Below, in pieces: positions 26,690 to 61,236 of a DNA stretch of 64,000 nt. The notes beneath the pieces are model-generated. The model saw only the letters and a program-made list of their open reading frames with translations, did no database searches and was not told the origin of the DNA. The number at the start of each line of letters is the position of its first letter. Position 1 is the stretch's first letter. Position numbers and translations under genes: made by a program. Source of the DNA: Rosistilla carotiformis (GTDB lineage Bacteria > Planctomycetota > Planctomycetia > Pirellulales > Pirellulaceae); NCBI RefSeq assembly GCF_007753095.1, contig NZ_CP036348.1, positions 7,355,411 through 7,419,410 of the forward strand, in the 5' to 3' direction.

Positions 26690-26788
26690 TTTAAAAGGCT
26701 GTCCTATGGGTATTTAAAAGGGGCAAGTACGCGGCACCGGAACACAAAGCAAACCTAGGCAATTTAGCCAGGGGATGCCAATCGATTC

Positions 26789-26794
26789 TATAAT
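26789..26794 (+). promoter_or_regulatory. candidate -10 box TATAAT
   Basis: A perfect TATAAT on the plus strand in a region where both flanking genes are on the minus strand. No good -35 box is seen 16-18 bp upstream. It would start a transcript near 26801 that ends at the terminator at 27158. Confidence 0.35.
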
Positions 26795-26800
26795 TCCAGG

Positions 26801-27158: not shown

Positions 27159-27197
27159 CGTTTCCCGTTCGAGCCCCACAAGCCTGGCGTGAAACCA

Positions 27198-38336: not shown

Positions 38337-38432
38337 GTGTGCCGATGGAAAAGAACATAAAGAGTAAGGTCGGTTTATCGTCTGTCGTCCTCCTGTTGAC
38401 GGGGCACGACGACGGGCTAGAAGCCGATCCCG

Positions 38433-42266: not shown

Positions 42267-43082
42267 CGTCGCCTCCTTGGCGAAAGAGCAAACCACCGCG
42301 AACGATCTGAAAAAGAGAGTCTTCGACGCTCCTGCCAACTCATGCGTTGCGATTGGCAACGGTCAGAAGAATGGGCGGACACCAAGATGCGGTTGCCGCG
42401 AGCATCGACCTACAACGCGTCATTCATTGATGCATCTGTTCGCGCAGGCTATCACTTCACCATACAGTGGTTTTGATTCGACACAAGGCCTAACAAGACG
42501 AACCCTCCAACACTTTGATTCCTTTACGCAACTTCGTAAAACATGTTTCGTCCCCAATCGGCGTATTCTGATAGATCGATGTCGCCGCGCTGAAACAACC
42601 TGGGGGACCGTTGGCTACAGAGCCAGCCTTCGAGAGTGACTGCCTAGTCCGATTCGCTTCCCTTGTCTCAGCCGTGAACAACCATTGCCTGCAAGAGCTG
42701 CAAATGGGCCGCTTGGAGGCCGCCACGCCAAACGGCCCCGTTCGGGGCGACACTCGGGTCCGCTCAATACCGGCATTTCGGCGCCTCGTTCTTAAATGCC
42801 AAACATCCAGCAGATGCGAAGCCATGCATCGATTGCGGCAGGCTCACCCCAATATGTGGTAATCGCATCCCTCATCACTTTGGGGGTGGCGTACGTTTCG
42901 CGAACCAAAAAGCGGGTTCGGATACACGGATTCTCTCAGTTGCGCAGTCGGCACAACCGTCAATCGTTTTGAATCTGCGGCAGCCGCGTTCGAAATGCCG
43001 TGGTTCCATGCAAGATAGAGCCCCGGTGTTTGGATGTCCACGATATCCGGTGGTGGAGTGACGCGGGAACCGATTTAACTTG
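42267..43082. other. 816-bp divergent intergenic region before the polysaccharide operon
   Basis: No protein gene that I can support: the small frames here have scrambled composition. It separates the minus-strand GH130 cluster from the plus-strand polysaccharide/NRPS operon and should hold both promoters. Two short palindromes are visible: TTTACG-N6-CGTAAA at 42523-42540 and GCCCCGTTCGGGGC at 42735-42748. No convincing sigma-54 site was seen. Confidence 0.5.
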
Positions 43083-44642: not shown

Positions 44643-44652
44643 ACAAGTCCTA

Positions 44653-44668
44653 TTACGATGCATCGTAA
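44653..44668. promoter_or_regulatory. perfect 16-bp palindrome after wzx
   Basis: TTACGATGCATCGTAA is a perfect palindrome ten bases past the flippase stop codon and 130 bp before the polymerase start. The flanks extend it imperfectly. No T tract follows, so it is not a typical terminator; a protein-binding site is possible. Confidence 0.3.
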
Positions 44669-44798
44669 GAGCTTCGGCAGAACTCCAATGGGGTGATTCG
44701 CCTAAGCCACCGATGGTTCACCGATCACACAAATCTCGATAATCGTTTCCCAATCTATCCACAACTTCAGTACACTCTCGCGTCTCCGCTTCATCCTC

Positions 44799-46073
44799 AT
44801 GTCCACTGTCACGTTGCCAACCGAACCGACACAAACCAATGGAGTTGCCACCTTGGCGTCCATTGTTTGGCAACCGTGTTTGGTATTCATGCCGTTTCTG
44901 GCAATGGGCGGTCTGTTGTGGTTGTGCCCTTCGATGGAAGGGGCTGCCGGCTATCGGATTCGCGAAGAATTGTCGATGGGAAACCTGATGGTGCTTGTCG
45001 GATGGTACGGATGTATCTTTGCATGTGCCGCGATGGGGCAACGACTTGCCTTGTCGCTCCCTCGTCTCAATGTGATGGCACGCGACGCGTTTGATTCAAC
45101 CGTCTTCTACAAGGCACTCACCTGTCTGGCCTTTATTGGCGTGGCGGGTGCGTGGATGGCGGCGCTTCGTAACGGCGTCTCCGTAGTGGAATTGATCAAG
45201 ACGCAACAGTTCAACCTGCTGAAGGATTCTCTGTACGCGAACTACAACCACCTGTACACCTTGCGTTACACGACGTCGCTGGTGGGTGGATACGCGCTGT
45301 ACCGGCTGGTTTTCCTTCGCCAAGTCAATCGTTTGGACATCTTGAACCTGTGCTTGATGCTCGCCGCAACAGCGATCTCTGCGCGGATTTTGATTATCCA
45401 AGCGGTCATCTTTTCCGGTGGCTTGGCAATTCGATTCGATGACCTTCGCCGCGTGAAAACGCGAACGATCACGATCGCGGCGCTCGGGTTGGCGATCTGT
45501 ATTGTCGCCTTCACCTGGGTCCGCAGCGCTGGCAGCTACCGCGATTACTTTGGAGTCGAGAATCCCCTGGCAATGACCTTCTTGGAGATTCAGCGTTATG
45601 TTGGCGCACCGGTTCAAGCGAGCATGGGCGTGGCGCGGATGGCAGCCGAACAACCTTCGCGTGGTTCACTGGGGAACCTCATCAAATACACAACACCCAC
45701 CTTCCTACATCCCGATGCTTTAAAGGTTGAAGACAATTCCGGCGGCGTCGCCGCCCAGTGGTACCTTCACGATGTGGATATCGATGAAACACTTACAACC
45801 AACTCCGCATTTGTGGAGATGTACGGCGATCTAGGTTTTTGGGCGTTTCCCGTCGTCGCATGGGCCAGCTTTTTGATGGCCGCTGTTGGCAGCTACTTTT
45901 GGCGCGCCGATAACCTGCTGTGTCTGATCGGCTGCGTCGTACTGTACGGCTTCTTTGAACTGTGGCGAACGTTCTACTTCACCGCCGGTTCGTTCACCTT
46001 CATGATTCTTGCGGTGCTTGTCGCCGCCACCGCAGCCACGTTGATCAAACCCGTACCGAGGACGGCATCATGA
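44799..46073 (+). CDS. Wzy-like polysaccharide polymerase
   Basis: A 424-residue protein with about 11 membrane helices and a large external loop near residues 245-340 (RSAGSYRDYFGVENP...NSGGVAAQWYLHDVDID), with TNSAFVEMYGDLGFWAF just after. This layout and its place between a flippase and transferases fit an O-antigen/exopolysaccharide polymerase; such proteins are recognised by topology more than motif. The stop overlaps the next start (ATGA). Confidence 0.72.
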   Translation: MSTVTLPTEPTQTNGVATLASIVWQPCLVFMPFLAMGGLLWLCPSMEGAAGYRIREELSMGNLMVLVGWYGCIFACAAMGQRLALSLPRLNVMARDAFDSTVFYKALTCLAFIGVAGAWMAALRNGVSVVELIKTQQFNLLKDSLYANYNHLYTLRYTTSLVGGYALYRLVFLRQVNRLDILNLCLMLAATAISARILIIQAVIFSGGLAIRFDDLRRVKTRTITIAALGLAICIVAFTWVRSAGSYRDYFGVENPLAMTFLEIQRYVGAPVQASMGVARMAAEQPSRGSLGNLIKYTTPTFLHPDALKVEDNSGGVAAQWYLHDVDIDETLTTNSAFVEMYGDLGFWAFPVVAWASFLMAAVGSYFWRADNLLCLIGCVVLYGFFELWRTFYFTAGSFTFMILAVLVAATAATLIKPVPRTAS

Positions 46074-47131
46074 GCGCAAGTCGCAATCTCATTTACGATT
46101 CACGCTGGATCAGCCCGACCGGGATCGGACGGTTCGCCAGTGAATTAGGCGATCGACTGCCATGCCTGCATCACCAGGCGATCGGCGGTAGCCCGACCAG
46201 TCCCTTGGACTGTCTGCGGTTGGGTTGGATGCTGTGGAATACCGACCGCGCCTTTTTTTCGCCCGGCTTCAATGTGCCACTGACATCCCCGATGCTGGCG
46301 AAGCGATCGTTTGTGTTCACGATTCATGATTTGATCTATGTGAATCATCCCGCCGAAGCATCCCTCGCCAAACGACTGTATTGTCAACATGTGATCCGCC
46401 CCGCGGCGCGGCGTGCATACAAAGTTCTCACCGTCTCCGAATTCTCAAAACGCGAAATCGTCGACTGGGCGAGAATCGATCCCTCACAAATTGAAGTGGT
46501 CTACAACGGCGTTGGCAGCGCATTCACACACGCGGGTCCGAAACACGATCTCCATCGTCCCTATCTTCTGTACGTGGGAAACCAACGCCCGCACAAAAAC
46601 GTGGGTGGGCTGCTGCATGCCTTCGCACAAATTTGCGGCACCCGAGATGTCGATCTGGCGATCACCGGTCAAGCGACGGCGGAAACCGTCGCGACGATGG
46701 AAAAATTAGCGATCGCCGGACGCGTTCACTTTCTCGGAAAATTGTCCGACGACCAACTGGCCGCTGCCTACCGCGGCGCTCAAGCGACCGTCTTGGCCTC
46801 AGAATATGAAGGCTTTGGTTTACCCGTGATCGAATCGATGGCGTGTGGTACGCCGGTGGTCTGCAGCAACGTCACATCGTTACCCGAAGTGGCGGGAGAC
46901 GCCGCCGTGCTGGTTGAAACCCACCCGGACAGCATCGCCGCTGGGATCCGCCGCGTTCTCGAAGACCCCACATTGCAGCAAACATTGATCGCGGCGGGAC
47001 TGAACCGCGCCGCCGATTTCAGCTGGGAAGCGACGGCGGCCAAAGTGCTCCAGGTCCTTCAACCACTCACCGTTGCCGCGACGCAATCCGTCCCAACGCT
47101 TATTCAACCTCTGGAAGCTTCTGTGAAGTAA
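46070..47131 (+). CDS. GT4 glycosyltransferase (polysaccharide operon)
   Basis: A 353-residue GT-B glycosyltransferase starting at the ATG that overlaps the polymerase stop. Landmarks: YDSRWISPTGIGRFASEL, FTIHDLIYVNHP, VLTVSEFSKREIV, YVGNQRPHKNVGGLLHAFA, and ASEYEGFGLPVIESMACGTPVVCSN (the E-x7-E donor-site region). This is the mannosyltransferase-like branch of GT4. Acts at the cytoplasmic face on a lipid-linked acceptor. Sugar unknown. Confidence 0.9.
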   Translation: MSASRNLIYDSRWISPTGIGRFASELGDRLPCLHHQAIGGSPTSPLDCLRLGWMLWNTDRAFFSPGFNVPLTSPMLAKRSFVFTIHDLIYVNHPAEASLAKRLYCQHVIRPAARRAYKVLTVSEFSKREIVDWARIDPSQIEVVYNGVGSAFTHAGPKHDLHRPYLLYVGNQRPHKNVGGLLHAFAQICGTRDVDLAITGQATAETVATMEKLAIAGRVHFLGKLSDDQLAAAYRGAQATVLASEYEGFGLPVIESMACGTPVVCSNVTSLPEVAGDAAVLVETHPDSIAAGIRRVLEDPTLQQTLIAAGLNRAADFSWEATAAKVLQVLQPLTVAATQSVPTLIQPLEASVK

Positions 47132-47134
47132 CCC

Positions 47135-48361
47135 ATGAAAAAAATTGCACTGATTCATGAATGGCTAACCACCTACGCAGGCTCCGAGCGCGTGGTGGAA
47201 CAGATGCTGCTGCAGTACCCCGAATCGGATCTGTTTGCCGTCGCCAACATCTTGTCCGCCGAAGATCAGAAGTTCCTTCGCGGAAAAGAACCGACAACCA
47301 GCTTCATTCAAAAGTTGCCGTTTCTAAAGAAGTTCCTCCGCCACTATCTGCCCTTGATGCCGATGGCGGTGGAGCAGTGGGATCTGAGCGCATACGACGT
47401 CATCCTGTCATCGAATCATGCCGTTGCCAAAGGCGTGATCTGTGGTCCCGATCAACTGCATATCAGTTACGTTCACACACCGATCCGTTATGCCTGGGAG
47501 TTTCAGGCGCAGTACCTGCGTGAGTCGAAGCTGACCTGGGGCGTGCGGAGTCTGTTGACCCGAATGATCTTGCATTACATGCGACTGTGGGACAATGTCT
47601 CGTCGACCCGCGTGGACGCATTTGTGGCCAACAGTCAATTCATCGCGAACCGGATTCAGAAGTGCTATGGCCGCCAGGCGGAAGTCATCTATCCGCCGGT
47701 CGATGTCGATGCGTTCGCGCCCAGCTACAAGAAAGAAGACTACTACATCGCCGCCTCGCGTTTGGTTCCCTATAAACGGGTCGATCTGATCGTCGAAGCT
47801 TTCCGGTTAATGCCAGAACGCAAACTGTTGGTGGTGGGCGATGGACCGATGTACAAGACGCTCAAGGCAAACTGTCCGGCCAATGTGGAATTGATGGGCT
47901 ATCTGCCGCATGAACGGATGAGCCAATTGATGCAGGGGGCCAAGGCATTTGTGTTTGCCGCCGAAGAGGACTTTGGAATCACATCGGTCGAAGCCCAAGC
48001 TTGTGCGACGCCGGTGATCGCTTATGGTCGCGGGGGCAGCTTGGAAACCGTGGTCGAAGGAGTCACTGGATGCTTCTTTGAGGAGCAGATTCCACAAAGC
48101 GTGGCGGACGCCGTCGCTACCTTTGAGAATCACCAAGATCACTTTGATTTGAAGGCCACGCGACAACATGCCGAAGGCTTCCGACCCGAACGGTTCCGCG
48201 AAGAACTCGCAAATTTTGTCGACTCCCAGTGGGCGCAATTTGTCGTCAACCGTCGTCGGCGTCCTCAACAAACCTTTTCTAAAACGACCCCCGGTTCGTT
48301 GAATCTGCCAGTCGACAACGCGTCGAACTTGGTTAATCTCGCAGGAGTGTCAGCCCAATGA
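47135..48361 (+). CDS. GT4 glycosyltransferase, WbaZ-like
   Basis: A 408-residue GT-B enzyme. MKKIALIHEWLTTYAGSERV is the typical opening of the WbaZ/mannosyltransferase group, followed by SYVHTPIRYAWEFQ, FVANSQFIANRIQKCYGR, and ASRLVPYKRVDLIVEAF; the donor site is AEEDFGITSVEAQACATPVIAYG. The last ~50 residues are polar and probably flexible. Three bases separate it from the previous gene and its stop overlaps the next start, so it is within an operon. Confidence 0.9.
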   Translation: MKKIALIHEWLTTYAGSERVVEQMLLQYPESDLFAVANILSAEDQKFLRGKEPTTSFIQKLPFLKKFLRHYLPLMPMAVEQWDLSAYDVILSSNHAVAKGVICGPDQLHISYVHTPIRYAWEFQAQYLRESKLTWGVRSLLTRMILHYMRLWDNVSSTRVDAFVANSQFIANRIQKCYGRQAEVIYPPVDVDAFAPSYKKEDYYIAASRLVPYKRVDLIVEAFRLMPERKLLVVGDGPMYKTLKANCPANVELMGYLPHERMSQLMQGAKAFVFAAEEDFGITSVEAQACATPVIAYGRGGSLETVVEGVTGCFFEEQIPQSVADAVATFENHQDHFDLKATRQHAEGFRPERFREELANFVDSQWAQFVVNRRRRPQQTFSKTTPGSLNLPVDNASNLVNLAGVSAQ

Positions 48362-49896
48362 ATACTGAATCCCCCAACGCAGCAAACCCCCTAAATCTTG
48401 TCCAAGCCTGTTGGCAAAACAAGGGCAAGATGCTGATCGTCTTTGCTTTGGTGATGGTTGCCACCGTGGGCATTCTGGGCCAGTTGAAGCTGAAATACAC
48501 TTCGGAGGCTAAGTTATTCATTCGGCTGGGTAAAGAAACCATCGGTCTGGATCCTACCGCGACCGTCGGTCAAACGGTGTCGGTTCAAGAGGCACGTGAG
48601 AAAGAGATTCATTCGGTGCAATCGCTGGTCCACAGTCGGAACGTTTTGGAACGCGTGGTCGACAACGTGGGCATCGATCGCATCTTGGAGAAAACCGATG
48701 GGAAGGAAAAAAATTGGTTGCCGATCGATCTCGATTACATCAAATCGCTCAGCCCCGTCTACGTCGATAGTCCACGCGACACGGCGATCGCCAAGCTCGA
48801 AAAGCAACTGGTGACGTTCAACCCGCGCTCCACTGCAATCATTGGTTTGCGGTATGAAACGATCAGTCCCGAATTGGCTGCCGAGGTGCTTCAAGAAGTG
48901 ATCGAGTCCTCGATCGACGCACAGGTTCGCGTTCACCAATCCGCCGGATCCAACGACTTCTTCCTCTCACAAACCCGACAGCAAGCCGAAGAGGTCGCCA
49001 AACTGGAAGATGAACTGTTGCGGTTCAAAAACGAAACGGGCGTCTCCGAATTAACACAACATCGGCAACTCAAGATTGCACAGATCGCATCGCTGCAAGA
49101 TGCCTTGATGGACACGATCGCGAAGAGCGAAGCGGTAACTCGGGAAATCGAATCACGTACGCAAATGATATATGAACTGCCCGCCCGAGTCCGGTTGTCC
49201 GAAACCACCGGGTTGCCCAGCAGTGCCGCCCAAGGAATGCGAGAGCAACTGTATTCGTTACAAATGGTAGAAAACGAACTCGTTTCACGATACCAACCCG
49301 ATCACCCCAAAGTCCGGCAAACACGCGCTCAAATTGCCGCCGCGCAAGAAACACTGGAATCCGAACATGTCCTGACACAGGTCACGATGGGCGTGAATGA
49401 ATCGCGACGTGAAATGGAATCGGCATTGCTCAATCAACAAGCCATTGCGGACTCGTTGGCGGCGCGCAAGACGATCTTGACGCAACAGATTGCCGAACTG
49501 GGAGAAGAACTCAAAGAGATCAATCAAAGTGAAATTACGTTAGCGCAGATCTCACGCAAACTCGATTTGGCCCGCGCCAGTTATCAAGACTACGCCAAAC
49601 GCTCCGAACTCGCTCGGTTGGACGTGGCGTTGAGTTTGGGAAATCTGTCAAATCTCAGCGTTTTACAACAGCCTAGCGATTCCAAGATCCCCTCCAGCCC
49701 CAAAGTTGCCTTGACCCTGGTCATGGGCACGACGATCGCGATCTTCTTGAGTCTGTTTGTTGGCGTCGTCTCGCAATGGTGCGGCGCTCCATCCCACCAC
49801 ATGGCGACGACCAATGGCACAAATTCTGTGCTACCCTTGCGAGGGCTTCCATTTGCCGAAGCCGCAAACCGCTTCTTTTCCTTTCGATGGCTCTAA
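48358..49896 (+). CDS. polysaccharide chain-length/co-polymerase protein (GumC/Wzz type)
   Basis: A 512-residue inner-membrane protein. An N-terminal helix (KMLIVFALVMVATVGIL) is followed by a Wzz domain (YTSEAKLFIRLGKETIGLDPT), a long periplasmic coiled coil (residues ~170-410), and a second helix (VALTLVMGTTIAIFLSLF). There is no C-terminal Walker-type tyrosine-kinase domain, so a separate kinase, not in this window, would be needed if regulation is of the Wzc type. AGGAG precedes the start, which overlaps the previous stop. It sits 24 bp before the NRPS gene. Confidence 0.85.
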   Translation: MNTESPNAANPLNLVQACWQNKGKMLIVFALVMVATVGILGQLKLKYTSEAKLFIRLGKETIGLDPTATVGQTVSVQEAREKEIHSVQSLVHSRNVLERVVDNVGIDRILEKTDGKEKNWLPIDLDYIKSLSPVYVDSPRDTAIAKLEKQLVTFNPRSTAIIGLRYETISPELAAEVLQEVIESSIDAQVRVHQSAGSNDFFLSQTRQQAEEVAKLEDELLRFKNETGVSELTQHRQLKIAQIASLQDALMDTIAKSEAVTREIESRTQMIYELPARVRLSETTGLPSSAAQGMREQLYSLQMVENELVSRYQPDHPKVRQTRAQIAAAQETLESEHVLTQVTMGVNESRREMESALLNQQAIADSLAARKTILTQQIAELGEELKEINQSEITLAQISRKLDLARASYQDYAKRSELARLDVALSLGNLSNLSVLQQPSDSKIPSSPKVALTLVMGTTIAIFLSLFVGVVSQWCGAPSHHMATTNGTNSVLPLRGLPFAEAANRFFSFRWL

Positions 49897-49920
49897 CTTT
49901 TTGCGATTCGGAAGGGCACG

Positions 49921-52900
49921 ATGACAATGATCCAAAGAGGACTGCCAATGCACCCAACTCGAACCCTGAGGGATTCCGAGTCGCTTGGCAATGCGGTTGT
50001 TCCAACGCCAGCTCTGGGTACCTTGTCGTCGTGTTGTGCGCGTTTGTCGCCAGTCGAATATGACCAACTGGTCGACTTGTGGAATCGGACCGAACACCGC
50101 TGGGACGATGCGCCTTGCCTGCACGAGCTGTTCACGACCCAAAGCAAGCACACCCCCGATGCCATCGCAGTGATCCATGGCGATCTTCGATTGACCTATG
50201 CCGAATTGGAAGAACGCTCGCGACGGGTCGCCTGTCGGTTGATCGAATTGGGAGTCTCTCCAGGTGATCGGGTCGCGGTGGTCGCCGACGGGACACCCAA
50301 CGCCTACATCGGTTTGCTTGGCATCCTACGTGCTGGCGCAGCCTACCTTCCGATCGATCCCACGTTTCCCGCCGACCGCATCCGCTTCTTTTTCGAAGAC
50401 GCCGCGGTCCGGTTCGTCGTGGGAAATATCGATCCTGCAAGATTCGAAGACCATCCCGGGCTGACGTTCGTCCAGTGCGATGAACTGCCCACCGGCAATA
50501 TCGATTGTTTGCCCAGCGTCGCGCCAACCAACCTCGCCTATGTTCTGTTTACCTCCGGTTCTACAGGCAAGCCGAAGGGAGTCATGCTCAATCACCAGGG
50601 ACCGGTGAATACTGTTCGCGACATCAACTTGAGCTTCGATGTGCAAGCAACCGATCGCGTCTTGGCGTTGTCGGCCCTTGGCTTCGATCTGTCGGTCTAT
50701 GATCTGTTTGGAATGTTTGCCGCCGGCGCGGCGATTGTTCTACCGACCCCCGAACAATCGCGTGATCCCCACAGCTGGCGCAGGTTGATCGAACAACATC
50801 AGGTCACGATCTGGAACACGGTCCCGGCTTTGATGGATATGTTCGTCACGAGCTTAGACGCGTCGACCACTTTGCCCAGCCTGCGCCGCGTGATGCTCAG
50901 CGGCGACTGGATTCCCGTCTCGCTGCCCGACCGCATACGCCACGCAGCCCCCAAAGCGCATCTGTATTCGTTGGGCGGCAGCACCGAGGCATCGATCTGG
51001 ACGGTTCTATACCCGATCGATCGCGTCGATCCCGATTGGCGGAGCATTCCCTATGGCAAACCGCTCCGCAACCAACGCTGCTATGTCGTCGATGCCGAAC
51101 GAAAGTTGTGCAAGATCGGCGAGGTGGGTGAATTGTGTCTGGCAGGCGTTGGTGTCGCTCTAGGCTACGTGAATCGACCCGAATTGACACAAGAACGCTT
51201 CATTCCGGATCCCTTCTCTCCCGGAGACACTCTTTATTTAACCGGCGACCTGTGTCGTTACGGTGAAGATGGAAACCTTGAATTTCTGGGGCGGCAAGAT
51301 CATCAAGTCAAGATCCGCGGCTACCGAATCGGCCTCGGCGAGATCGATGCCGAAACGCAAAAGCTGCCCGCCGTTCGCGATGCGGTCGTCGTCGCCAGCG
51401 AAGAAGAGGCCGGTGCGCGATTGATCGCGTATGTGGTCTTTGAATCGGGACAACAGCTGACGCTCGAGGAATTGCAGACCCAGCTGGCGGCAAGTCTTCC
51501 AAAATATATGCTGCCCGCCGCCATGGTCCCGCTAGATCGATTGCCGCTGACCGCCAATGGCAAGATCGATCGCAAGGGTTTGCCCTCCCCGACGGCGACG
51601 CGAGAAGCGAGCCCGAAGCAGCAGCCCAGCAATCCCACCGAAGCGGCCGTCTGCGAGATCTTATCCGAACTGTTGCATCGCGATCCGATCGATCCGCGCG
51701 ATGGCTTCATCGCGCTGGGTGGAAATTCTTTGGTCGCCGTGGCGTTGGCCAGTCGGCTCAAAACCGTTTTCGGAATCCAGATCCCGTACTGGGATATCCT
51801 GGCCAATTCTCCCAACGCGATCCGACTGGCATCGCGGATCGAGACGCATCGCCAATCGCCGCAGCCAGTGGCCAGCACGCTCGTCGAAATCGGCAGCACG
51901 CCTCTCGATGAAGCTCCGTTGTCGTACCAACAGCAGCAGATCTGGGTCGAACATTTCCTGAAATCGAACCGCGCTCGATACAACATCCCCCTCGTGTACG
52001 ACCTTGTGGGAGAGGTCGATCTGTCGGCGCTTCAACAAGCGTTCACCTTGTTGATCGATCGCCACGCGATCCTGCGAACGCTCTATACACCAACCAGCTC
52101 CGGTTTAACGCAGCGGCCGATCGAGCCGACGCAGTTTACGGTGGAGTCGGTCGATCTGGGACAGATCGATTCGGCGACGCGGCAACAAACGATCGATGCG
52201 CAAACGCTGGCCTTTGTTTCGGAAGGCTTTGACCTCGACCATCAAATCCCGATCCGTGCGGCTCATTTTAAATTGAGCCCCAACCAATCGCGGATGGTCG
52301 TGTCGGTACATCACATCGCGTTCGATGGCCATTCGATCGATCTGTTGCATCGCGATCTGGCCAGCTTCTATCGAGCGATCGTCGATCGAAAAGGCCCAAC
52401 GCTCGCCGCGTTGCCCTACCAATACGCCAACTACGCGTTGGCGCAGCAGACAGCGGACGGTTCCGATCTGTTGGATGCCGACCGCGCGTACTGGCAACGT
52501 CAATTGTCGGGAGAATTGCCACAACTGGATCTGCCCCGCGACCCTTCCGACGCCGCGGAGTCCGAGGGGGATACGATCTCGTTGCAGATCGATCGCGATT
52601 TGCTGGACGCGGCGAGAAGGTATTCTTCCAATCGCCAATCGACCCTCTTCGTGACGCTGTTGGCTGCGATCAAGGCGACGCTGTTTCGGTATACGGGGCA
52701 ACAGGATCTGATCGTCGGATCGGCAGTCGCGGCGCGACCCGAGGCGGAGATGGAGGATCTGATCGGATATTTCATCAACGTGCTTCCGTTGCGAACTCAG
52801 TTTGCCGCCAGCGAATCGTTTGATGCGTTGCAAACGAAGGTCCGTGAAACGACCCTCTCGGCGATGGCGCATCAGAACTATCCGTTGGAGTTGATGAAGC

Positions 52901-55900
52901 GAGAGATCTTCGCGTCGCAGGGAACCGGCACGTCGCCATTCCGCGTCTTGTTTGTCCTCGAAAATGAACCCTGTTCTCTGGAGCTGACGGGTGTCGAAGC
53001 GCGTCGGGTTCCGATGGAGACGCAGACCGCGAAGTTCGATCTGTTGATCGCTGCCAGCGAATCGGACGCGAGCCTGCGAATCGATCTGCAGTACCGCTGC
53101 CAAAACTTCTGCCGCGAACGGATCGTTCATTTCGGAGAACATCTGACGACGTTGCTCTCCGCCGCGGTCGAAGCACCCGCAACGCCAGTCGATCGATTGC
53201 AGATGCTTCCGGCATCGCAACGTGCTTCCCTGCTGCAAGGCCCGATCGGCAGCAGCGCTTCGACGGGCGATCCAAACGCGACCGAACAATGCGATGATTC
53301 GGATCGTCGGCTTTCGCCTTCGGTGCTGACGTTGTTCGATGCCCAAGTCGAACGAAGCCCCGACAGCACGGCTGTCTGTTTTGAAGAGCAAACGTTCTCC
53401 TATGCGGAACTCGATCGCCGCGCGACGATCTTGGCATCGCGGTTGATCGAACTGGGAGTGCTTCCCGATCTACCGGTCGCGCTCAGTATCACGCGGTCGC
53501 CAGAGATGGTGGTCGCGGTTTTGGCGGTCCTGAAGGCCGGCGGGTGTTACGTTCCGGTCGATCCCGCGCTGCCACGGCACCGCCGCAAACAGATCCTCGA
53601 CGATTGCCAACCGCAGGTCTTGCTGACGCTGACGGGATTGACCAACGATTTGGAACTTAACGAATCGGCGACGCCAACTCTGCGGCTGGATACCTTCGAT
53701 TTTTCCAACCATCCGGCCAGCACCATCGAATTGCCCGCTCTGTCGGCTGATAATTTGGCGTACATCCTGTATACCTCCGGATCGACGGGCAAGCCCAAAG
53801 GCGTAGCGATGCCTCACGGTGCGGTCGCCAATCTGATCGCATGGCAGTTGGAAAACTCGCAGGCCGATCCAACGACCAAGACGCTGCAGTTTGCGTCGTT
53901 GGGATTTGATGTCTCCTTTCAAGAGATCTTTGCGACGCTGTGCAGCGGTGGTCAGTTGGAACTGGTAAGCGAAGATCGGCAACAAGACCTGCACCGATTG
54001 TGGAAGTTCATCGTCGACGCGAAGATTGGTCGAATCTTCGTTCCATTTGTTGTGCTGCGAACGCTTTGTGAAATCGCGGGGGATTCGGCGCGAGAGGCGT
54101 CGCTTCGCGAGGTGATCACAGCGGGAGAACAGTTGCAAATCACGCCGGCGGTGCGCAAGTTCTTCCAACAGCAACCCGGCTGCCGACTTTGGAATCACTA
54201 CGGGCCGACCGAAACCCACGTCGCGACCGGTTATCGTTTGGCGGCGGATCCGAGCACGTGGCCTGCGATTCCGCCGATCGGCAAACCGATCGATCGTTGC
54301 GTTGCCCTGGTTCTCGACGAACACATGCAACCGCTACCTCAGGGAATCGAAGGCGAACTGTATCTCGGCGGCGCCTGCGTCGCACGCGGCTACTATCAGA
54401 ATCCCTCGCTGACACAGCAGCGTTTTGTGAGCGGTCCGTTGGCAACCCCCGCGTGCGATCGGATGTATCGAACCGGAGACATCTGTCGACTCAACTGGGA
54501 TGGCGAACTTGAATTCGTCCGCCGCAATGACGATCAGATCAAACTGCGCGGCCACCGCGTTGAACTGAGCGAGATCGAGACGGTGCTCAACCAGCACGCC
54601 GACGTGAAGCAAGCCGTTGTTTGTTTCGACCCCAGCAGCCTGGGCGGTCATTTGATCGCGTATGTGTTGTCCGATTCGGAAGAGATCCGCGTCGATGACC
54701 TGAAGCAATTTTTACAGTCGCGGTTGCCAGCGTACATGCTGCCCAATGTGTTTTGCATCGTCGATGATTTTCCCAAAACCGCCAGTGGAAAGATCGACCG
54801 CAAACGTTTGCCCAAGGTCTCGCCATCGGTTGAGGCTTCGGAAAGGCAAGCGACGGAAGCTTCGACACCCAACGATCCTCTGATCGCTCGTCTGTTGGAG
54901 ATCTGGCGATCGGTATTGGACACCGACCAGATCGACGCCCACAGCAACTTCTTCGATTGCGGTGGAGACTCCCTCGCGGCGGCCCTTCTGTTCGCGCGGA
55001 TGGAAAGCGAATTTGGTCAGGCGTTGTCGATCACGAAACTCGTGGAATGTCCTACCGTCACAAAGCTGGCGGAACTGTATCGTCAGGACGACGATCGGGT
55101 CGAGGGCTGCTGGAACGAAGTCATGCGGATCGATCCGCAGCAATCCGCGTCGACGGCGGCTCCGCTCTTCTGTCTGCCCGGAATCGACGGCCATCTACTC
55201 AACTTCCGCGATTTGGCGGCCGCCATCGGGCAGGATCGTCCCGTATATGGGCTGCAGCCCTACGGCCTCGATGGCAATAGTTCCCCCTGCACAAGTATCG
55301 AAGAGATCGCCAGCCGACACGTTCAAGAGATCCGTCGTGTGATGCCAAACGGACCGTATCATCTGGCGGGATTTTCGTTTGGCGGAGTCGTCGCGTATGA
55401 GATCTCTCAACAATTGCGTCGTGCCGGCGAACAGGTGACCCTTGCGATTCTCGATGCTTATACCGGACTGCCCAAACTGGCGCCGTTGTATCAACGCTTC
55501 GCATTCCATCTGCGTTTTGCGCGGCAATGCGACGGGTGTCAACGTTGGAAATACCTTGCCGAACGCGTGACCGGTTTGGTCGCCGCGATCCAGCATCGTT
55601 TCGGTTGGATCACGATGGAACAGCGGTTGGAACGAATCATCAACGCCAAAGGAAACTACGCAAAAGTTGCCGCCATGAATATGACGGCGTTGGATGAGTA
55701 TCGCCCTACGGCCGCCCAAGGGCCGGCGACACTCTACCGTGCCAAGTTCCGCGCCGATTGGCCTGGCCAGGACGCTACCGATCCCAACATGGGATGGGGC
55801 AACGTCTTCGACACCGATGACTTGGACGTGATCGAAGTCGAAGGAGCGCACGCCAACATGCTTTCCGAAGCCAAACTGGCCGGCCTAGTCGAACATCTCC

Positions 55901-55929
55901 GCCGCACCATGTCGCGCGACGACGTTTGA
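49921..55929 (+). CDS. two-module non-ribosomal peptide synthetase (A-T-C-A-T-TE)
   Basis: A 2002-residue megasynthase with GGAAGGG just upstream of its ATG. Domains: adenylation 1 (~60-550; FTSGSTGKPKG, core lysine in TANGKIDR), carrier 1 (LGGNSL, Ser603), condensation (~660-1085; HHIAFDG at 797-803, intact), adenylation 2 (~1136-1630), carrier 2 (CGGDSL, Ser1684), thioesterase (~1745-2000; GFSFGG Ser1819, His1977). Reading the ten Stachelhaus positions by eye gives D-L-Y-N-M-S-L-I-W-K for A1, one change from a known cysteine code, and D-V-Q-I-I-A-H-V-A-K for A2, close to the proline code. The predicted product is a dipeptide such as Cys-Pro, or its cyclised form. No cyclisation, epimerase, MbtH or phosphopantetheinyl transferase gene is nearby. 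It follows the polysaccharide genes in one operon. Confidence 0.92.
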   Translation: MTMIQRGLPMHPTRTLRDSESLGNAVVPTPALGTLSSCCARLSPVEYDQLVDLWNRTEHRWDDAPCLHELFTTQSKHTPDAIAVIHGDLRLTYAELEERSRRVACRLIELGVSPGDRVAVVADGTPNAYIGLLGILRAGAAYLPIDPTFPADRIRFFFEDAAVRFVVGNIDPARFEDHPGLTFVQCDELPTGNIDCLPSVAPTNLAYVLFTSGSTGKPKGVMLNHQGPVNTVRDINLSFDVQATDRVLALSALGFDLSVYDLFGMFAAGAAIVLPTPEQSRDPHSWRRLIEQHQVTIWNTVPALMDMFVTSLDASTTLPSLRRVMLSGDWIPVSLPDRIRHAAPKAHLYSLGGSTEASIWTVLYPIDRVDPDWRSIPYGKPLRNQRCYVVDAERKLCKIGEVGELCLAGVGVALGYVNRPELTQERFIPDPFSPGDTLYLTGDLCRYGEDGNLEFLGRQDHQVKIRGYRIGLGEIDAETQKLPAVRDAVVVASEEEAGARLIAYVVFESGQQLTLEELQTQLAASLPKYMLPAAMVPLDRLPLTANGKIDRKGLPSPTATREASPKQQPSNPTEAAVCEILSELLHRDPIDPRDGFIALGGNSLVAVALASRLKTVFGIQIPYWDILANSPNAIRLASRIETHRQSPQPVASTLVEIGSTPLDEAPLSYQQQQIWVEHFLKSNRARYNIPLVYDLVGEVDLSALQQAFTLLIDRHAILRTLYTPTSSGLTQRPIEPTQFTVESVDLGQIDSATRQQTIDAQTLAFVSEGFDLDHQIPIRAAHFKLSPNQSRMVVSVHHIAFDGHSIDLLHRDLASFYRAIVDRKGPTLAALPYQYANYALAQQTADGSDLLDADRAYWQRQLSGELPQLDLPRDPSDAAESEGDTISLQIDRDLLDAARRYSSNRQSTLFVTLLAAIKATLFRYTGQQDLIVGSAVAARPEAEMEDLIGYFINVLPLRTQFAASESFDALQTKVRETTLSAMAHQNYPLELMKREIFASQGTGTSPFRVLFVLENEPCSLELTGVEARRVPMETQTAKFDLLIAASESDASLRIDLQYRCQNFCRERIVHFGEHLTTLLSAAVEAPATPVDRLQMLPASQRASLLQGPIGSSASTGDPNATEQCDDSDRRLSPSVLTLFDAQVERSPDSTAVCFEEQTFSYAELDRRATILASRLIELGVLPDLPVALSITRSPEMVVAVLAVLKAGGCYVPVDPALPRHRRKQILDDCQPQVLLTLTGLTNDLELNESATPTLRLDTFDFSNHPASTIELPALSADNLAYILYTSGSTGKPKGVAMPHGAVANLIAWQLENSQADPTTKTLQFASLGFDVSFQEIFATLCSGGQLELVSEDRQQDLHRLWKFIVDAKIGRIFVPFVVLRTLCEIAGDSAREASLREVITAGEQLQITPAVRKFFQQQPGCRLWNHYGPTETHVATGYRLAADPSTWPAIPPIGKPIDRCVALVLDEHMQPLPQGIEGELYLGGACVARGYYQNPSLTQQRFVSGPLATPACDRMYRTGDICRLNWDGELEFVRRNDDQIKLRGHRVELSEIETVLNQHADVKQAVVCFDPSSLGGHLIAYVLSDSEEIRVDDLKQFLQSRLPAYMLPNVFCIVDDFPKTASGKIDRKRLPKVSPSVEASERQATEASTPNDPLIARLLEIWRSVLDTDQIDAHSNFFDCGGDSLAAALLFARMESEFGQALSITKLVECPTVTKLAELYRQDDDRVEGCWNEVMRIDPQQSASTAAPLFCLPGIDGHLLNFRDLAAAIGQDRPVYGLQPYGLDGNSSPCTSIEEIASRHVQEIRRVMPNGPYHLAGFSFGGVVAYEISQQLRRAGEQVTLAILDAYTGLPKLAPLYQRFAFHLRFARQCDGCQRWKYLAERVTGLVAAIQHRFGWITMEQRLERIINAKGNYAKVAAMNMTALDEYRPTAAQGPATLYRAKFRADWPGQDATDPNMGWGNVFDTDDLDVIEVEGAHANMLSEAKLAGLVEHLRRTMSRDDV

Positions 55930-55970
55930 TACCGACGTGTTTCCCAACAGCGTGCGAGGTCGCCAGACCT

Positions 55971-57251
55971 TCATTCGACGGCGCGAGGATTTAACGCCGG
56001 AAGGGATCGTTGACGATCGCAGCGTCGAGCCGACTGGGAATCGATCGCTTTGCGGAACGCTTGAGCTAGCGATTGCCCCTGCCACGCAGTTGACCCTTCG
56101 CCGCGCTGACCGTAGCGCATGCGATGCAGTTCCGCCGCGGCGACGAACAGTTCGGCGGAGGGTTGGTAACTTGCAGGCTGAGTATTTTGCCAGTCGGCCC
56201 ATGCCGCTTCGGCAGCCGCGGCATCGTTGCGATGACAGGCTCGGATCAGACGTCGCGCGGCGACACGATCGGCGGGATTCAACCGCCGCCATACGCTCTT
56301 AGTCCAAGATCGGATCCGATCGAACTGCCAGATCGCGAGTCCTAACAGTGCAATGGATAGAAACGCAGTTAAAGCGATTCGCATCCGACTTGGTGGCGGA
56401 GGAGGCGGGGGAGCTGGCTTGGGTGCGGCAGCCACTTCGAACGTCACCGGGGGAAGCGTCTTGGTTCCAAACTCCTCTGATTTCGGATTCCACCAGATGT
56501 ATTTGATTCCCGGGATCGTGAGCGTCCCCGACCCTTTGAGCATGTAGGTGATCGTGTCGCTGCGCGTGCCGCTAAACTCCCCTCGCTGTGTTTTGTCGTC
56601 GACGGTCGGTTTGCCGACGTAGACGCTGATTCCTTCGGGAGCCGTGGTGGGTGGCGGAGCGAGCGCCATGCCCGATGTCTGTTGGGCACTCTGAGCGATC
56701 GTGCGACGGAAAACATCTCCCTGTTCCGCCGATCCCGGTTCGGGAGTCCACGATTCGGTGATCTCCAATTTTTCGGTCGTCACCAGAAAGACCGACTCCG
56801 GCAATCCCGGCGGCCGCTTGATCTGCAAATCGGTCGCTGGCACCTGTTCCACATGTTCCTGGTTCGGACCGGTGAAGCCGTCGCGGTGGGTGAAGCGGAC
56901 TTCAAAGGCGGGAACCGTGACTTTTCCGGCTGCCTGCGAGAACAACGCGAACTCGTGCGTTTGCATGAACCACGACGTGTCCCCCTTTTCCTCCGACGAG
57001 ACGACCGGGCTGCCGACCTTCACCAACAGGGCTCGGGGAATCTCAGGGATCGAAAAACTAGCGGCTCCAACAAACGGACCGTTGCCGCGCAGCTGCACAT
57101 AAATGGGCAACCGCTGTCCCATCCAAGCCTCTTTGTTCGGCACGTCGATCGAAACGGGATCGCCATCCGCCGCCGGCGCCGCGGCGGCAAAGGTCATCGC
57201 CCAGAGTGCGATCACGACCAGCCCAAACAGCATTCCACGCGGCACTCTCAT
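55971..57251 (-). CDS. batD: BatD-like protein
   Basis: A 426-residue membrane-anchored protein. The signal peptide (MRVPRGMLFGLVVIALWAMTFAAA) leads to two or three beta-sandwich domains (IDVPNKEAWMGQRLPIYVQL, FALFSQAAGKVTVPAFEVRF, TITYMLKGSGTLTIPGIKYI), a proline-rich spacer, one helix (MRIALTAFLSIALLGLAIW) and a cytoplasmic helical tail. The ATG at 57251 overlaps the preceding gene's stop (ATGA), which decides the start against a frame reaching 57533. Last gene of the moxR operon; it converges with the NRPS gene, 41 bp apart. Confidence 0.82.
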   Translation of the reverse strand: MRVPRGMLFGLVVIALWAMTFAAAAPAADGDPVSIDVPNKEAWMGQRLPIYVQLRGNGPFVGAASFSIPEIPRALLVKVGSPVVSSEEKGDTSWFMQTHEFALFSQAAGKVTVPAFEVRFTHRDGFTGPNQEHVEQVPATDLQIKRPPGLPESVFLVTTEKLEITESWTPEPGSAEQGDVFRRTIAQSAQQTSGMALAPPPTTAPEGISVYVGKPTVDDKTQRGEFSGTRSDTITYMLKGSGTLTIPGIKYIWWNPKSEEFGTKTLPPVTFEVAAAPKPAPPPPPPPSRMRIALTAFLSIALLGLAIWQFDRIRSWTKSVWRRLNPADRVAARRLIRACHRNDAAAAEAAWADWQNTQPASYQPSAELFVAAAELHRMRYGQRGEGSTAWQGQSLAQAFRKAIDSQSARRCDRQRSLPALNPRAVE

Positions 57252-57841
57252 TGCGTCCCTCCTGCGTCCTGCTCCGCTTGTTGGAACGCAAACTTTGACC
57301 TCAGGAAATCGGCCGGTTTGGTTTGCACTTGGCGCAACCAGACCGCTTGAACCGTGGCATCGGACGCCGCTTGGTCCCCGGCGATTTCGGTCTCCTGTCC
57401 CTGATCGTCCTTCTTTTTGTCGAAGACGATCTCGTCGGCTCCAACCTGCTGATCGCCCAGATCGCCCCCTTTCAATTCGAGCATCTTGGCCCGCGCGGCG
57501 GCGAGGTCGCGATTCTCTAGCGCCTGCGTCCAATCGGGGCGTTGCTTGATCGCTTGATCATAACTGGCGACCGCTTTGTCGTATTTGCCCAGCATCACCC
57601 AGCAGTTCCCTTGGTTGAATTGCGCTTCGGGCGTTGCGACGCGAGCAAACGATTGAGTCGCTTTTTCGAATTCCCCCGCGCGATACCAAGCGACTCCCTG
57701 TCGCATCGGATCGTTGTAAACGACCGCTGCGTCGGCAAACTTTTCCGCTCGCATCAAGCGATCGCCATGCTGATCGCCGGTCATCCAAAGACCGATCCAA
57801 GAGATGGCGACCACGGCAGCTCCGCTTTTCCAAATCATCAC
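57248..57841 (-). CDS. TPR protein (BatC-like)
   Basis: A 197-residue protein. An N-terminal helix (MMIWKSGAAVVAISWIGLWM) anchors it to the membrane; residues ~50-110 contain tetratricopeptide repeats (GVAWYRAGEFEKATQSFARV, FNQGNCWVMLGKYDKAVASYDQAIKQRP). The C-terminal half is acidic and glutamine-rich. It lies 3 bp after one VWA gene and overlaps batD, matching the BatC slot of Bat operons. Confidence 0.82.
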   Translation of the reverse strand: MMIWKSGAAVVAISWIGLWMTGDQHGDRLMRAEKFADAAVVYNDPMRQGVAWYRAGEFEKATQSFARVATPEAQFNQGNCWVMLGKYDKAVASYDQAIKQRPDWTQALENRDLAAARAKMLELKGGDLGDQQVGADEIVFDKKKDDQGQETEIAGDQAASDATVQAVWLRQVQTKPADFLRSKFAFQQAEQDAGGTQ

Positions 57842-57844
57842 GCT

Positions 57845-58777
57845 CTACTCCTTGGGCTGCGAAGATTTTTGGCGTCGAAACGATACGGCGACAAGCAAAG
57901 CCAACAGCGGCGTCAACCAATAACCGGCCTCCTGCCAACGATTGCTCTCGCCCGAGACGCCTGCGGCGGCGCGGCGTTGAGCGAAGCGGAAGATCTGTTG
58001 GATGTCGTCATCTTCGATCGAAAGCGATTCGACCGAACCACCGATCGCCGCAGCGACGTCGCGAAGCGATTGCGTCTCCGCCGAATCGGGATCGGTCAAA
58101 GCAAGGAACTCCGTCGGTGGCGATCCGACCGATTGATGAGCTTTGACCACTTCCGACGGATCGATCTCTGCGGAATCGGCGACGACCAACAGCGATCCCC
58201 CCGATCCCTGTTCGCGCAGCAACTCGCCCGCGGCGGCGATCGCCAAATCCAATCGATCCCCGGGAACCGGCATCACGTCGGGGCTGATCTCCGCCGCCAT
58301 CTCGCCGATCACGGCGGTGTCTTGCGTTGGCGGAAGGACCAGGTGGGCCGAACCGGAATAAGCGAGCAGGCCCAACGGGTCTCCCTTGCGAGCCTTCGCT
58401 AGATCGGCGATTTTCAGTTGAGCACGCTCCATCCGCGATGGCGAAGGGTTGGTCTTCAACATGCTCTCGCCCGCTTTTAAGACGATCATCAATGGCGGAG
58501 CGTCTTCGGCGAAGGGATTGGGTTCCAGTTTCCAAGTGGGGCCCGCGATCGCGATCGCGGCGACGATCCAAGCGGCCACCATCGCGTAACGCATGGGATC
58601 GCGCTTCGCATCGCGATCGTCAACCAACGCTTCCAATAGGTCGGGATCGATCTGTTGCCGCCAACCGCGCAGCGGATCGAGCTGTCGCTGCCAGTACCAC
58701 CAGACCGCAAACGCGATTGGAATCAGCGCCAGGCCAAGTGGGCGGACGAAATGAAAGTTGTGCAAGAGTCCCATCAT
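57845..58777 (-). CDS. VWA-domain membrane protein, BatB-like, degenerate MIDAS
   Basis: A 310-residue protein with two N-terminal helices (PLGLALIPIAFAVWWYW and MVAAWIVAAIAIAGPTW), a VWA domain and a C-terminal helix (YWLTPLLALLVAVSF). The metal-site motif that should read DxSxS is KAGES in LMIVLKAGESM, so the first Asp and Ser are lost and metal binding may be impaired; GLLAYSGSAHLVLPPTQD is otherwise conserved. Start overlaps the stop of the upstream batA gene. Confidence 0.8.
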   Translation of the reverse strand: MMGLLHNFHFVRPLGLALIPIAFAVWWYWQRQLDPLRGWRQQIDPDLLEALVDDRDAKRDPMRYAMVAAWIVAAIAIAGPTWKLEPNPFAEDAPPLMIVLKAGESMLKTNPSPSRMERAQLKIADLAKARKGDPLGLLAYSGSAHLVLPPTQDTAVIGEMAAEISPDVMPVPGDRLDLAIAAAGELLREQGSGGSLLVVADSAEIDPSEVVKAHQSVGSPPTEFLALTDPDSAETQSLRDVAAAIGGSVESLSIEDDDIQQIFRFAQRRAAAGVSGESNRWQEAGYWLTPLLALLVAVSFRRQKSSQPKE

Positions 58778-59811
58778 CCGTCGACCTCCAAACTGCCAGT
58801 GATCGGATTGACGTGGACCCTTGTCGTTTGGGCGGCCAGTTCCGGCGGAGTCCGGCGGGAGAGTGCGGCGGCAAATTTGCTGGCCATCGACAGCAGCAAC
58901 CAGGCCGCTAGCGGCACGTAGTAAATATCGGTGCGTGGGCGATGGCTGACCGTTTTGACTTTCCGAGTTTCGATTTTGTCCAATTCGTCGTAGATCCCCA
59001 CCAAGCTCTTCCGATCGGCGGCAAAAAAGTAAGACCCGCCGGTGGCCGATGCGACGTCGCGGAGCGCTTGTTCGTCCAGTACATCCTCGCCGACCGTCGT
59101 CGGATCGCCGATCGCGACGGTATGGATGTGGATGTCGCGTTGCGCCGCGACGCGTGCCGCTTCGATCGGCGGAATCTTGCGCTTGGTGTCGTTTCCATCG
59201 GTCAGCGCGATGATCGTCTTCGCCTGCGCATCGCTCTCGTCAAACAAACCAACTCCCAAGCCGATGGCGTCTCCCAACGCAGTCCGCGGCCCCGCCATGC
59301 CGACTTGGCATTCGTCCAACAAGCGACGCGATAACTCGAGGTCGGTCGAAAACGGAGCTTGCAAATAAGCCGCGTCGCCGAAGACGACTAACCCGACGCG
59401 ATCTCCCTGACGCCGGTCGAGAAACTCTCCCAGCACCTCTTTGACCGCCGCCAGCCGATCGACTTTCTGACCGCTCTTATTCGTAAAATCTTTTTGGTCC
59501 ATCGATCCCGACAGATCGACTAACAGCAGTAGATCGCGCGTTGGCAGTTCCTTGGTGATCGGCGGCTCGATCCACTGCGGCCGCGCCGCGGCGGCGAGGA
59601 CCAGCGTCCAGAGAATCGCTGGCAGAATCCAACGCGTCGGCGCTGCAGCAGCGATCACGGCAACGGGACTGCGGCCTATCGCTTCGGCAAGGCGATTGCC
59701 AAAGGGAACACGTACCGATACCTGTTGTGACTGGCGTGGCGGCAGCAACGCGCGCAACAACCACGGCAGGGGAAACAGCAGGAAAACCCAGAGGTAGTCG
59801 AAGGTCAGCAT
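58774..59811 (-). CDS. batA: VWA-domain membrane protein BatA
   Basis: A 345-residue protein with N-terminal helices (LWVFLLFPLPWLLRALLPP and WILPAILWTLVLAAAARP) and a VWA domain with an intact MIDAS, LLVDLSGSMDQKDF, plus VVFGDAAYLQAPFS, GTALGD-like PRTALGDAIGLG and IIALTDGND. The C-terminal helix (VPLAAWLLLSMASKFAAAL) completes the BatA layout. Overlaps the DUF4381 gene upstream by 7 bp. Confidence 0.88.
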   Translation of the reverse strand: MLTFDYLWVFLLFPLPWLLRALLPPRQSQQVSVRVPFGNRLAEAIGRSPVAVIAAAAPTRWILPAILWTLVLAAAARPQWIEPPITKELPTRDLLLLVDLSGSMDQKDFTNKSGQKVDRLAAVKEVLGEFLDRRQGDRVGLVVFGDAAYLQAPFSTDLELSRRLLDECQVGMAGPRTALGDAIGLGVGLFDESDAQAKTIIALTDGNDTKRKIPPIEAARVAAQRDIHIHTVAIGDPTTVGEDVLDEQALRDVASATGGSYFFAADRKSLVGIYDELDKIETRKVKTVSHRPRTDIYYVPLAAWLLLSMASKFAAALSRRTPPELAAQTTRVHVNPITGSLEVDG

Positions 59812-60290
59812 CCGTGGCGGTCCTCCGGCAATGAGTTCGTGGCGGCCGGAATCTCATGCGTTTGAATCCAGCCGCTGGCGTATTCCCGCAGCGAATTCAG
59901 TTCGTCGGTCGTTTCCGATTTGCGATAGATCGCCGATGCCAATTGCTCGCGGACCTGGGGCGGCATCGGCAGTGGAGCGGCTTCGGATAACCAAGTCGCC
60001 CAACGATCACCGACGAGATCGGCGATCTCGCCACGCGGTTGGATCGCCAGCGCGGTTCGTCGCAAGACCTCCGATACGGCAGCCGCCGAATCGGCCGACT
60101 GCAACTCCTGCAATGCCGCCCGCCGATAGCGATTCGCTTGCCAATGACGCCACGAACGATAAGCGATCGCCAACACGCCTGCGGCGACCAGGATCATCAC
60201 GGCGTACCAGCCCGGAGCCGGCGGCCACCAAGGGACCTCTGGCGGAACGACGATATCGTGCAAACGGTCTAGGCTAGTTGCGTCGTCCAT
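59805..60290 (-). CDS. DUF4381 protein
   Basis: A 161-residue bitopic protein. The opening LHDIVVPPEVPWWPPAPGWYAVMILVA is the DUF4381 signature (a short external segment then one helix), followed by a cytoplasmic helical domain (ALQELQSADSAAAVSEVLRR, VGDRWATWLSEAAP). It occupies its usual place between the DUF58 and batA genes, with a two-base gap to the DUF58 gene. Confidence 0.88.
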   Translation of the reverse strand: MDDATSLDRLHDIVVPPEVPWWPPAPGWYAVMILVAAGVLAIAYRSWRHWQANRYRRAALQELQSADSAAAVSEVLRRTALAIQPRGEIADLVGDRWATWLSEAAPLPMPPQVREQLASAIYRKSETTDELNSLREYASGWIQTHEIPAATNSLPEDRHGC

Positions 60291-60292
60291 CG

Positions 60293-61228
60293 TTACCGTG
60301 ATTGATTGCCAAAGAGGGACCTAATTTGCGGAGCGACGGGCAAGGCGGTGGAGATCGGCAACACCGGGACTCGCAAGCCGTGAAAGATCTCTTTCCAATG
60401 ATCCAGCAGCCGTTGAAACGTGGCTTGGAACTCGTCCCGAAAACCGGGGCTTTTCGATATTTCCCAAACTCGACCGCGATCATGGGCCAGCATTCCTGGA
60501 GCCCCGTTGATCGAGATCCCCAGCGGATCGTAGACCGCCACGATTAAGACATCGTTGTGTGCCGCCAACCGGCTGGTCAGTTGTTGCGTCTGGTCGTCGG
60601 CACCGTCCAGATCGCTGATCACGACGACCAAATGATCGTGCTTCACAACCTGCAGCGCATGTTCCAGAACGGCGTTCAGTTGGATCGATTGATCGACCGC
60701 AGCGGTTTCGTTTTGCTTGGCGCTCGGATCGGCGAGCTGACCGTTCAATCGGACGACTTGGTGGAACAATTGCAGCACGCGATTTTGGCTGCGATGCGGA
60801 CGCACCTCGGCGATCTCGTGGTCGTTGAATACCAGACCGCCGACGCGATCGCCACTGTCCAAGGCCCGCCAAGATCCCAGCGCCGCGACCTCTGCAGCCG
60901 CGACCGACTTCATCGCCCGGCGGCTGCCAAAAAACATCGGCGACCGTTGATCGACGACCATCAAAACGGGGCGCTCGCGTTCTTCGGAATAGACGCGGAC
61001 GTGGGGCGATCGCAGCCGTGCTGTCGCTTTCCAGTCCATCAACCGGATGTCGTCCCCTTGGTGATAATGACGCAGTTCTTCGAACATCAGCCCCCGTCCG
61101 CGCAGCCGCGAAGCGTGCCGACCGGCCAGCAGCGAACCGACTGGCTGGCGAGGCGTCAGCGAAAAGCCGCGCGCATCGGCTTTGAGCATCATCAAGTCTT
61201 CGAGCGTAATCGTCACCTGGGCTTTCAT
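60293..61228 (-). CDS. DUF58 protein
   Basis: A 311-residue cytoplasmic protein with a degenerate VWA fold. LLAGRHASRLRGRGLMFEEL, YHQGDDIRLMDWKATARL and YSEERERPVLMVVDQRSPM are the DUF58 hallmarks. The ATG at 61228 is 8 bp from the moxR stop; a GTG at 61240 overlapping that stop (GTGA) would add four residues and is equally possible. Works with the MoxR ATPase. Confidence 0.9.
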   Translation of the reverse strand: MKAQVTITLEDLMMLKADARGFSLTPRQPVGSLLAGRHASRLRGRGLMFEELRHYHQGDDIRLMDWKATARLRSPHVRVYSEERERPVLMVVDQRSPMFFGSRRAMKSVAAAEVAALGSWRALDSGDRVGGLVFNDHEIAEVRPHRSQNRVLQLFHQVVRLNGQLADPSAKQNETAAVDQSIQLNAVLEHALQVVKHDHLVVVISDLDGADDQTQQLTSRLAAHNDVLIVAVYDPLGISINGAPGMLAHDRGRVWEISKSPGFRDEFQATFQRLLDHWKEIFHGLRVPVLPISTALPVAPQIRSLFGNQSR

Positions 61229-61236
61229 CGGCTGGC

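Follow-up and report, generated by a model that had tools for sequence, protein, structure and literature searches.

In Wzx/Wzy-dependent exopolysaccharide and capsule loci, a flippase, a polymerase, glycosyltransferases and a co-polymerase are encoded in one run, and two-module dipeptide synthetases carry adenylation (A), carrier (T), condensation (C) and thioesterase (TE) domains in the order A-T-C-A-T-TE. As a rule, peptide synthetases and the machinery for sugar polymers are dealt with as distinct pathways, and an annotator would be likely to split in two a locus that holds both. Here we describe such a locus from the planctomycete Rosistilla carotiformis, in a stretch of 64,000 nucleotides (contig NZ_CP036348.1, positions 7,355,411 to 7,419,410 of the forward strand) that we call the window and whose own numbering is used throughout. 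A gene for a two-module nonribosomal peptide synthetase (NRPS), at 49921-55929 on the plus strand, follows a run of five polysaccharide genes. The run is like Wzx/Wzy loci in its flippase, putative polymerase, GT4 glycosyltransferases and co-polymerase, but differs from them in ending with an NRPS and in lacking two components: a priming transferase, of which homologues are present elsewhere in the host genome, and an outer-membrane export channel of the Wza type, which was looked for among the genes of the run and not in the rest of the genome. The synthetase is like two-module dipeptide synthetases in its domain order and intact motifs, but is unlike them in its place within a polysaccharide cassette and in its predicted product, Cys-Pro.

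Some assembly lines off-load their products onto a sugar, among them the streptothricin NRPS and Pks13, the latter by means of its TE. These are precedents for sugar transfer, and the Pks13 TE matches the window TE over its full length (residues 16-275, E 4e-13); however, their products are small molecules or lipids, and other TEs match the window TE better. Thiol-bearing glycans are known from the sheaths of Leptothrix, whose fibrils are described as glycoconjugates cross-linked by thiols (PMC8264430). For the sheath glycoconjugates of Leptothrix and Sphaerotilus, to which a reference title in PMC11087309 gives the name "thiopeptidoglycan," the genes reported in the accessible part of that article are the glycosyltransferases sthA and lthB, and no NRPS is mentioned there. 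A Rosistilla polymer would likewise be a secreted, thiol-cross-linking glycan. Our literature searches found no described NRPS associated with a Wzx/Wzy locus or with a peptide-bearing exopolysaccharide, which is no proof of absence.

Conservation of the six-gene cassette

The run begins with a Wzx-like flippase of 520 residues (43080-44642; Polysacc_synt, Pfam PF01943, E 2e-9), which has an orthologue at 5/5 related loci. It continues with a putative Wzy-type polymerase, a polytopic membrane protein of 424 residues (44799-46073), with two GT4 glycosyltransferases of 353 and 408 residues (46070-47131 and 47135-48361; Pfam PF00534, E 2e-34 and E 9e-27) and with a polysaccharide co-polymerase of 512 residues, of the Wzz/Wzc type without a kinase domain (48358-49896). 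All lie on the plus strand, as does the NRPS of 2,002 residues. From flippase to NRPS the spacing is 156, -4, 3, -4 and 24 bp (negative values are overlaps). A sequence-only reading of the window had described this run and a complete A-T-C-A-T-TE synthetase 24 bp behind it; frames and spacing confirm the former, and the latter is an intact open frame with the expected Pfam domains. Two of the names given in that reading call for caution. The position and membrane character of the second protein fit a polymerase, but with no family match in Pfam, NCBIfam or PHROGs the name depends on context, and its AlphaFold model (pLDDT 46) was unusable. The "chain-length protein" had no Pfam match and matched TIGR03007 of NCBIfam weakly, far below the cut-off; a search of the PDB by Foldseek with its predicted structure (pLDDT 67.6, pTM 0.35) nevertheless supported the name, as Wzc chains came first and KpsE next, with WzzE and Wzz lower.

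We searched 241 genomes of the family for the NRPS (threshold, E 1e-150) and the polymerase (threshold, E 1e-20). An NRPS match was present in 34 of them, at 58-100% identity in six (three from Rosistilla and three from genus g51) and at 39% or less in the rest. Polymerase homologues were found in eight genomes, namely the same six, at 70-100% identity, and two of genus g48, at 32%. The order flippase, polymerase, GT4, GT4, co-polymerase, NRPS is found in all six genomes whose NRPS is a close homologue; for one of them, G002, the neighbourhood stretch stopped inside the NRPS, and the whole gene was seen separately. The gap between co-polymerase and NRPS is 21-24 bp in Rosistilla. In 3/3 cassette-bearing genomes of g51 the co-polymerase stop codon has one base in common with the first ATG of the NRPS frame, and an alternative GTG start upstream would give an overlap of ten bases. 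A priming sugar transferase gene adjoins the flippase on its upstream side in the three g51 genomes (Pfam on the G161 copy). A scan of named genomes added two distant relatives and nothing closer.

The surroundings of the cassette were compared by blastp (E 1e-25) over up to 20 kb per side, with roughly 4 kb on the upstream side in G152. The flanks of the other five cassettes held no counterpart of any open reading frame (ORF) from positions 1-43000 of the window. Among the downstream ORFs of the window, 14 had counterparts in G002 (13 at 88-99% identity and one at 63%), five of them on the downstream side of the cassette there and nine on its upstream side. A single match, at 34%, was found in G001. 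The g51 genomes have flanks in common, but apart from the tail of the NRPS they share only matches of 26-34% with Rosistilla. The six-gene block thus stays constant as the genes around it change. The conserved block holds no gene for resistance, for regulation or for a dedicated peptide exporter, an absence that favours a role of the NRPS in the glycan pathway. Between the window and G001 the NRPS has a nonsynonymous divergence (dN) of 0.18 and a synonymous divergence (dS) of 1.24, which indicates purifying selection. A degenerate gene is ruled out by the open frame, the intact motifs and this dN/dS.

The two g48 loci (G145 and G147) are like the cassette in having the 32% polymerase homologue, related GT4 genes and a flippase, but differ in gene order and in having a sulfotransferase in place of the NRPS. 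Pfam, applied to G145 only, identified a priming transferase, two GT4-like genes, the flippase and the sulfotransferase; no NRPS match lies within approximately 19-20 kb at either locus. The two loci (L061 and L062) look as if genes for glycan modification had been exchanged.

A seventh predicted Cys-Pro synthetase and a survey of other NRPSs

A seventh synthetase with the same predicted specificities was found in G294, a genome from another family of the order, in which one of the two genomes examined had the NRPS. The gene is full-length, and its codes are DLYNLSLIWK and DVQFIAHVVK. It is preceded, in the same orientation, by a GT4 gene and a gene for a Wzz-like protein 34% identical to that of the window, with the start of the contig just beyond them; an M28 peptidase gene lies downstream. 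The pairing of NRPS and polysaccharide genes may have come about, or been put together anew, on more than one occasion. A separate rebuilding is possible because the first A domain (A1) of G294 groups with domains of Rheinheimera rather than with the six, as set out below.

How far the pairing is peculiar to Cys-Pro synthetases was judged from 93 NRPS places (54 + 29 + 10), read for codes and neighbours; four were re-read, which gives 97 loci in the final set, with at least two A domains readable in 61. The places came from searches of the host's own genome, genus, family, class, order and phylum and of named genomes. The searches covered 241, 397, 396 and 392 genomes, which overlap, the last three being samples, and weaker places listed without a locus were left out. 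Cys followed by Pro was read at 7/93 places, with a co-polymerase gene alongside in 7/7. At the other 86 a co-polymerase was found in none, and a homologue of any cassette protein in only two (L034 and L118), in both cases of the first GT4. Pro modules behind other first modules (L024, L088, L096, L098, L141, L143, L144 and others) and Cys modules ahead of other second modules (L107, L108 and L018) had no cassette homologue nearby within flanks that were short and unequal, at approximately 1.5 kb beside the match for 54 places and approximately 5 kb, where contigs allow, for 29. Large NRPSs may hide neighbours in flanks of this size, and as homologues of only five window proteins were sought, unrelated polysaccharide genes would escape. 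At one locus (L124) a Pro module stands at the contig edge, with the preceding module out of sight. We regard this control of NRPS neighbourhoods as indicative. The same NRPS lying mostly away from polysaccharide loci, which the sequence-only reading had named among the findings that would count against it, was not what the survey showed. Its view that the synthetase belongs with the polysaccharide operon has instead gained support from the order kept in two genera, the one-base overlap, the case in a second family and the differing flanks. The chemical part of that reading, in which the peptide would decorate or cap the glycan or be exported with it, is compatible with the sequence, as is release of a free dipeptide or diketopiperazine. 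The feature is real and conserved, and its coupling to the polysaccharide genes is tighter than a first reading of the sequence could show.

The two places with a GT4 homologue near an NRPS (L034 in G159 and L118 in G010) may possibly make glycosylated peptides. Three further places (L024 in G055, L143 in G690 and L144 in G621) hold two-module NRPSs of approximately 2,000 residues with Pro in the second module; the codes of their first A domains are without the usual Asp (GSK..., HGA...), and perhaps something other than an amino acid is loaded.

Domains and predicted product of the synthetase

Pfam found two AMP-binding, two AMP-binding_C and two PP-binding domains, one condensation domain and one thioesterase domain in the NRPS, and no further domain. 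A1 (50116-51597) is followed by the T1 carrier, recognised by its GGNS motif (51706-51762), the C domain with HHIAFDG (51907-53235; PF00668, E 6e-89), the second A domain (A2; 53320-54825), the T2 carrier with GGDS (54889-55077; PF00550) and the TE with GFSFGG (55162-55926; PF00975). The catalytic motifs of C, of both T domains and of the TE are intact in 6/6 orthologues, including the Ser, Asp and His of the TE. The A1 code is DLYNMSLIWK, which we take to specify Cys, and the A2 code is DVQFIAHVAK, which we take to specify Pro. Across the six orthologues A1 shows a single change, F for Y in G162, and variation in A2 is confined to I/V/M and A/V. The product is thus predicted to be Cys-Pro, and the residue codes agree with the Cys-Pro-type dipeptide that had been proposed from the sequence. 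Among solved chains, the linear gramicidin synthase LgrA ranked first for both A domains, aided by matching twice; for A1 the bacillamide synthetase BmdB was also high, and for A2 so was tyrocidine synthase 2. A tree built from 88 A-domain rows placed the six A2 domains in one fully supported group, and likewise the six A1 domains. The latter fell, with two Rheinheimera domains and the A1 of G294, into a supported larger group, whereas the A2 of G294 was no clear sister of the six. The best solved matches of the TE were NRPS thioesterases (E 2e-20 over residues 16-124 and E 4e-16 over residues 23-256). Matches to the ACPS family of phosphopantetheinyl transferases exceeded the cut-off in 7/7 genomes; in the host genome the match is a frame of 274 residues outside the locus.

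Compared with G002 (L009), the NRPS is a mosaic, with a proportion of synonymous differences (pS) of 0.54 over the first 400 codons and of 0.10 from codon 1401 on; pS for the five upstream genes is 0.60-0.73. This suggests recombination within the gene, as in the exchange of capsule loci.

Possible roles of the dipeptide

The synthetase, in our view, very probably works as part of the polysaccharide cassette, and we have high confidence that NRPS and polysaccharide are functionally coupled. In Rosistilla we infer that the run and the NRPS are transcribed together. Promoter and terminator matches across 42300-56300 are no more frequent than in shuffled sequence. What the dipeptide does is a more delicate matter. 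The reading that we prefer, tentatively and at somewhat less than even confidence, is that the NRPS acts as the sixth gene of the cassette and that Cys-Pro is used on the same glycan, which would give a thiol-bearing polymer. Covalent attachment of the dipeptide to the glycan, taken by itself, is plausible but falls short of probable. More speculative still is a complete hybrid pathway, in which Cys-Pro is handed to the Wzx/Wzy repeat unit and the secreted thiol polymer cures by disulfides into an adhesive or fibre. In the reading that we prefer, A1 would load Cys onto T1, the C domain would couple this residue to Pro carried by T2, and the resulting Cys-Pro thioester would be off-loaded by the TE. 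The TE, or an unlinked step, would then transfer the dipeptide to the lipid-linked repeat unit, at one of its amino or hydroxyl groups, before the unit is flipped. The exported polymer would bear cysteine thiols available for disulfide cross-links or metal binding in the rosette matrix, the fibres or the holdfast. Acceptor, transfer step and material role of a Cys-Pro glycan are the inferred parts of this scheme. For comparison, we take the dipeptide of the Leptothrix sheath to be Cys-Gly, which our literature look-ups did not confirm. A thiol glycan is workable, because thiols cross-link the glycoconjugates that make up the Leptothrix sheath fibrils (PMC8264430).

Several observations weigh against use on the glycan. 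The g48 loci have a sulfotransferase and no NRPS, so that the glycan machine does not need the synthetase. In G294 the gap between co-polymerase and NRPS is 198 bp, and a homologue of the window polymerase was not detected (in a single genome, without a positive control). A weak terminator match lies just ahead of the NRPS, at 49858-49875, among matches that overall are at chance level. Other points speak at the same time for the main rival, which we consider nearly as likely as use on the glycan: the NRPS may release Cys-Pro or cyclo(Cys-Pro) in free form, to serve outside the cell as a thiol, a metal ligand or a signal; the molecule would be made alongside the polysaccharide and perhaps held in the matrix. 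The TE is complete and fits other NRPS thioesterases best, Pfam finds no peptide-to-sugar ligase or transferase in the cassette, and dipeptidyl thioesters with a terminal Pro readily close to a diketopiperazine. However, free release alone leaves unexplained why the gene has been retained in a glycan cassette in two genera and another family, and the conserved block has no separate exporter.

It is improbable that the dipeptide instead caps the chain end, or modifies a lipid carrier or cell-wall partner, and so tethers the polymer to the cell. The NRPS does stand directly after the gene for the co-polymerase, the governor of chain length, in 7/7 cases, but this adjacency is the whole of the case for tethering, and no anchoring enzyme is seen in the block. 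That an unrelated secondary-metabolite gene landed by chance behind the operon would fit the patchy spread (6/241 family genomes), and a lone NRPS would also fit the 24-bp gap and the absence of further biosynthetic genes, but we judge it equally improbable from the gene order in relatives, kept across two genera while flanks change, the stop/start overlap, the purifying selection, the further case in another family and the surroundings of the 86 other NRPS places.

R. carotiformis Poly24 was obtained from polyethylene particles in the Baltic, and its cells form rosettes; one cell pole bears matrix or fibre and the opposite pole a holdfast (PMC7716947). If the NRPS feeds the glycan, the locus would give rosette-forming planctomycetes, which colonise plastic and algae, a genetically encoded way to make a thiol-bearing polysaccharide adhesive, and the chemistry of the planctomycete matrix could be tested by deletion of one gene. 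Even with a free product, a conserved operon for a polysaccharide plus a dipeptide would be a clear target for product discovery. R. ulvae EC9 is reported to have four clusters of the polyketide synthase (PKS)/NRPS type, whose similarity to antiSMASH references is below 10% (PMC8303584). As these clusters were tallied there, the NRPS as such has probably figured in an earlier count; its setting is not mentioned in the part of that article consulted.

Other genes of the window

Divergent from the polysaccharide run, on the minus strand at 36891-41752, lie a GH130 phosphorylase, a GT4 transferase and a second GH130 phosphorylase in a row, a set that is absent from the examined neighbourhoods of the other cassettes. 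Convergent with the NRPS, at 55971-61462 on the minus strand, BatD-like, VWA and DUF58 genes form a cluster of the aerotolerance type, and further BatA/VWA genes are found at 23872-29192. A protein of 443 residues with variants of the MORN_2 repeat is encoded at 18685-20016 on the plus strand.

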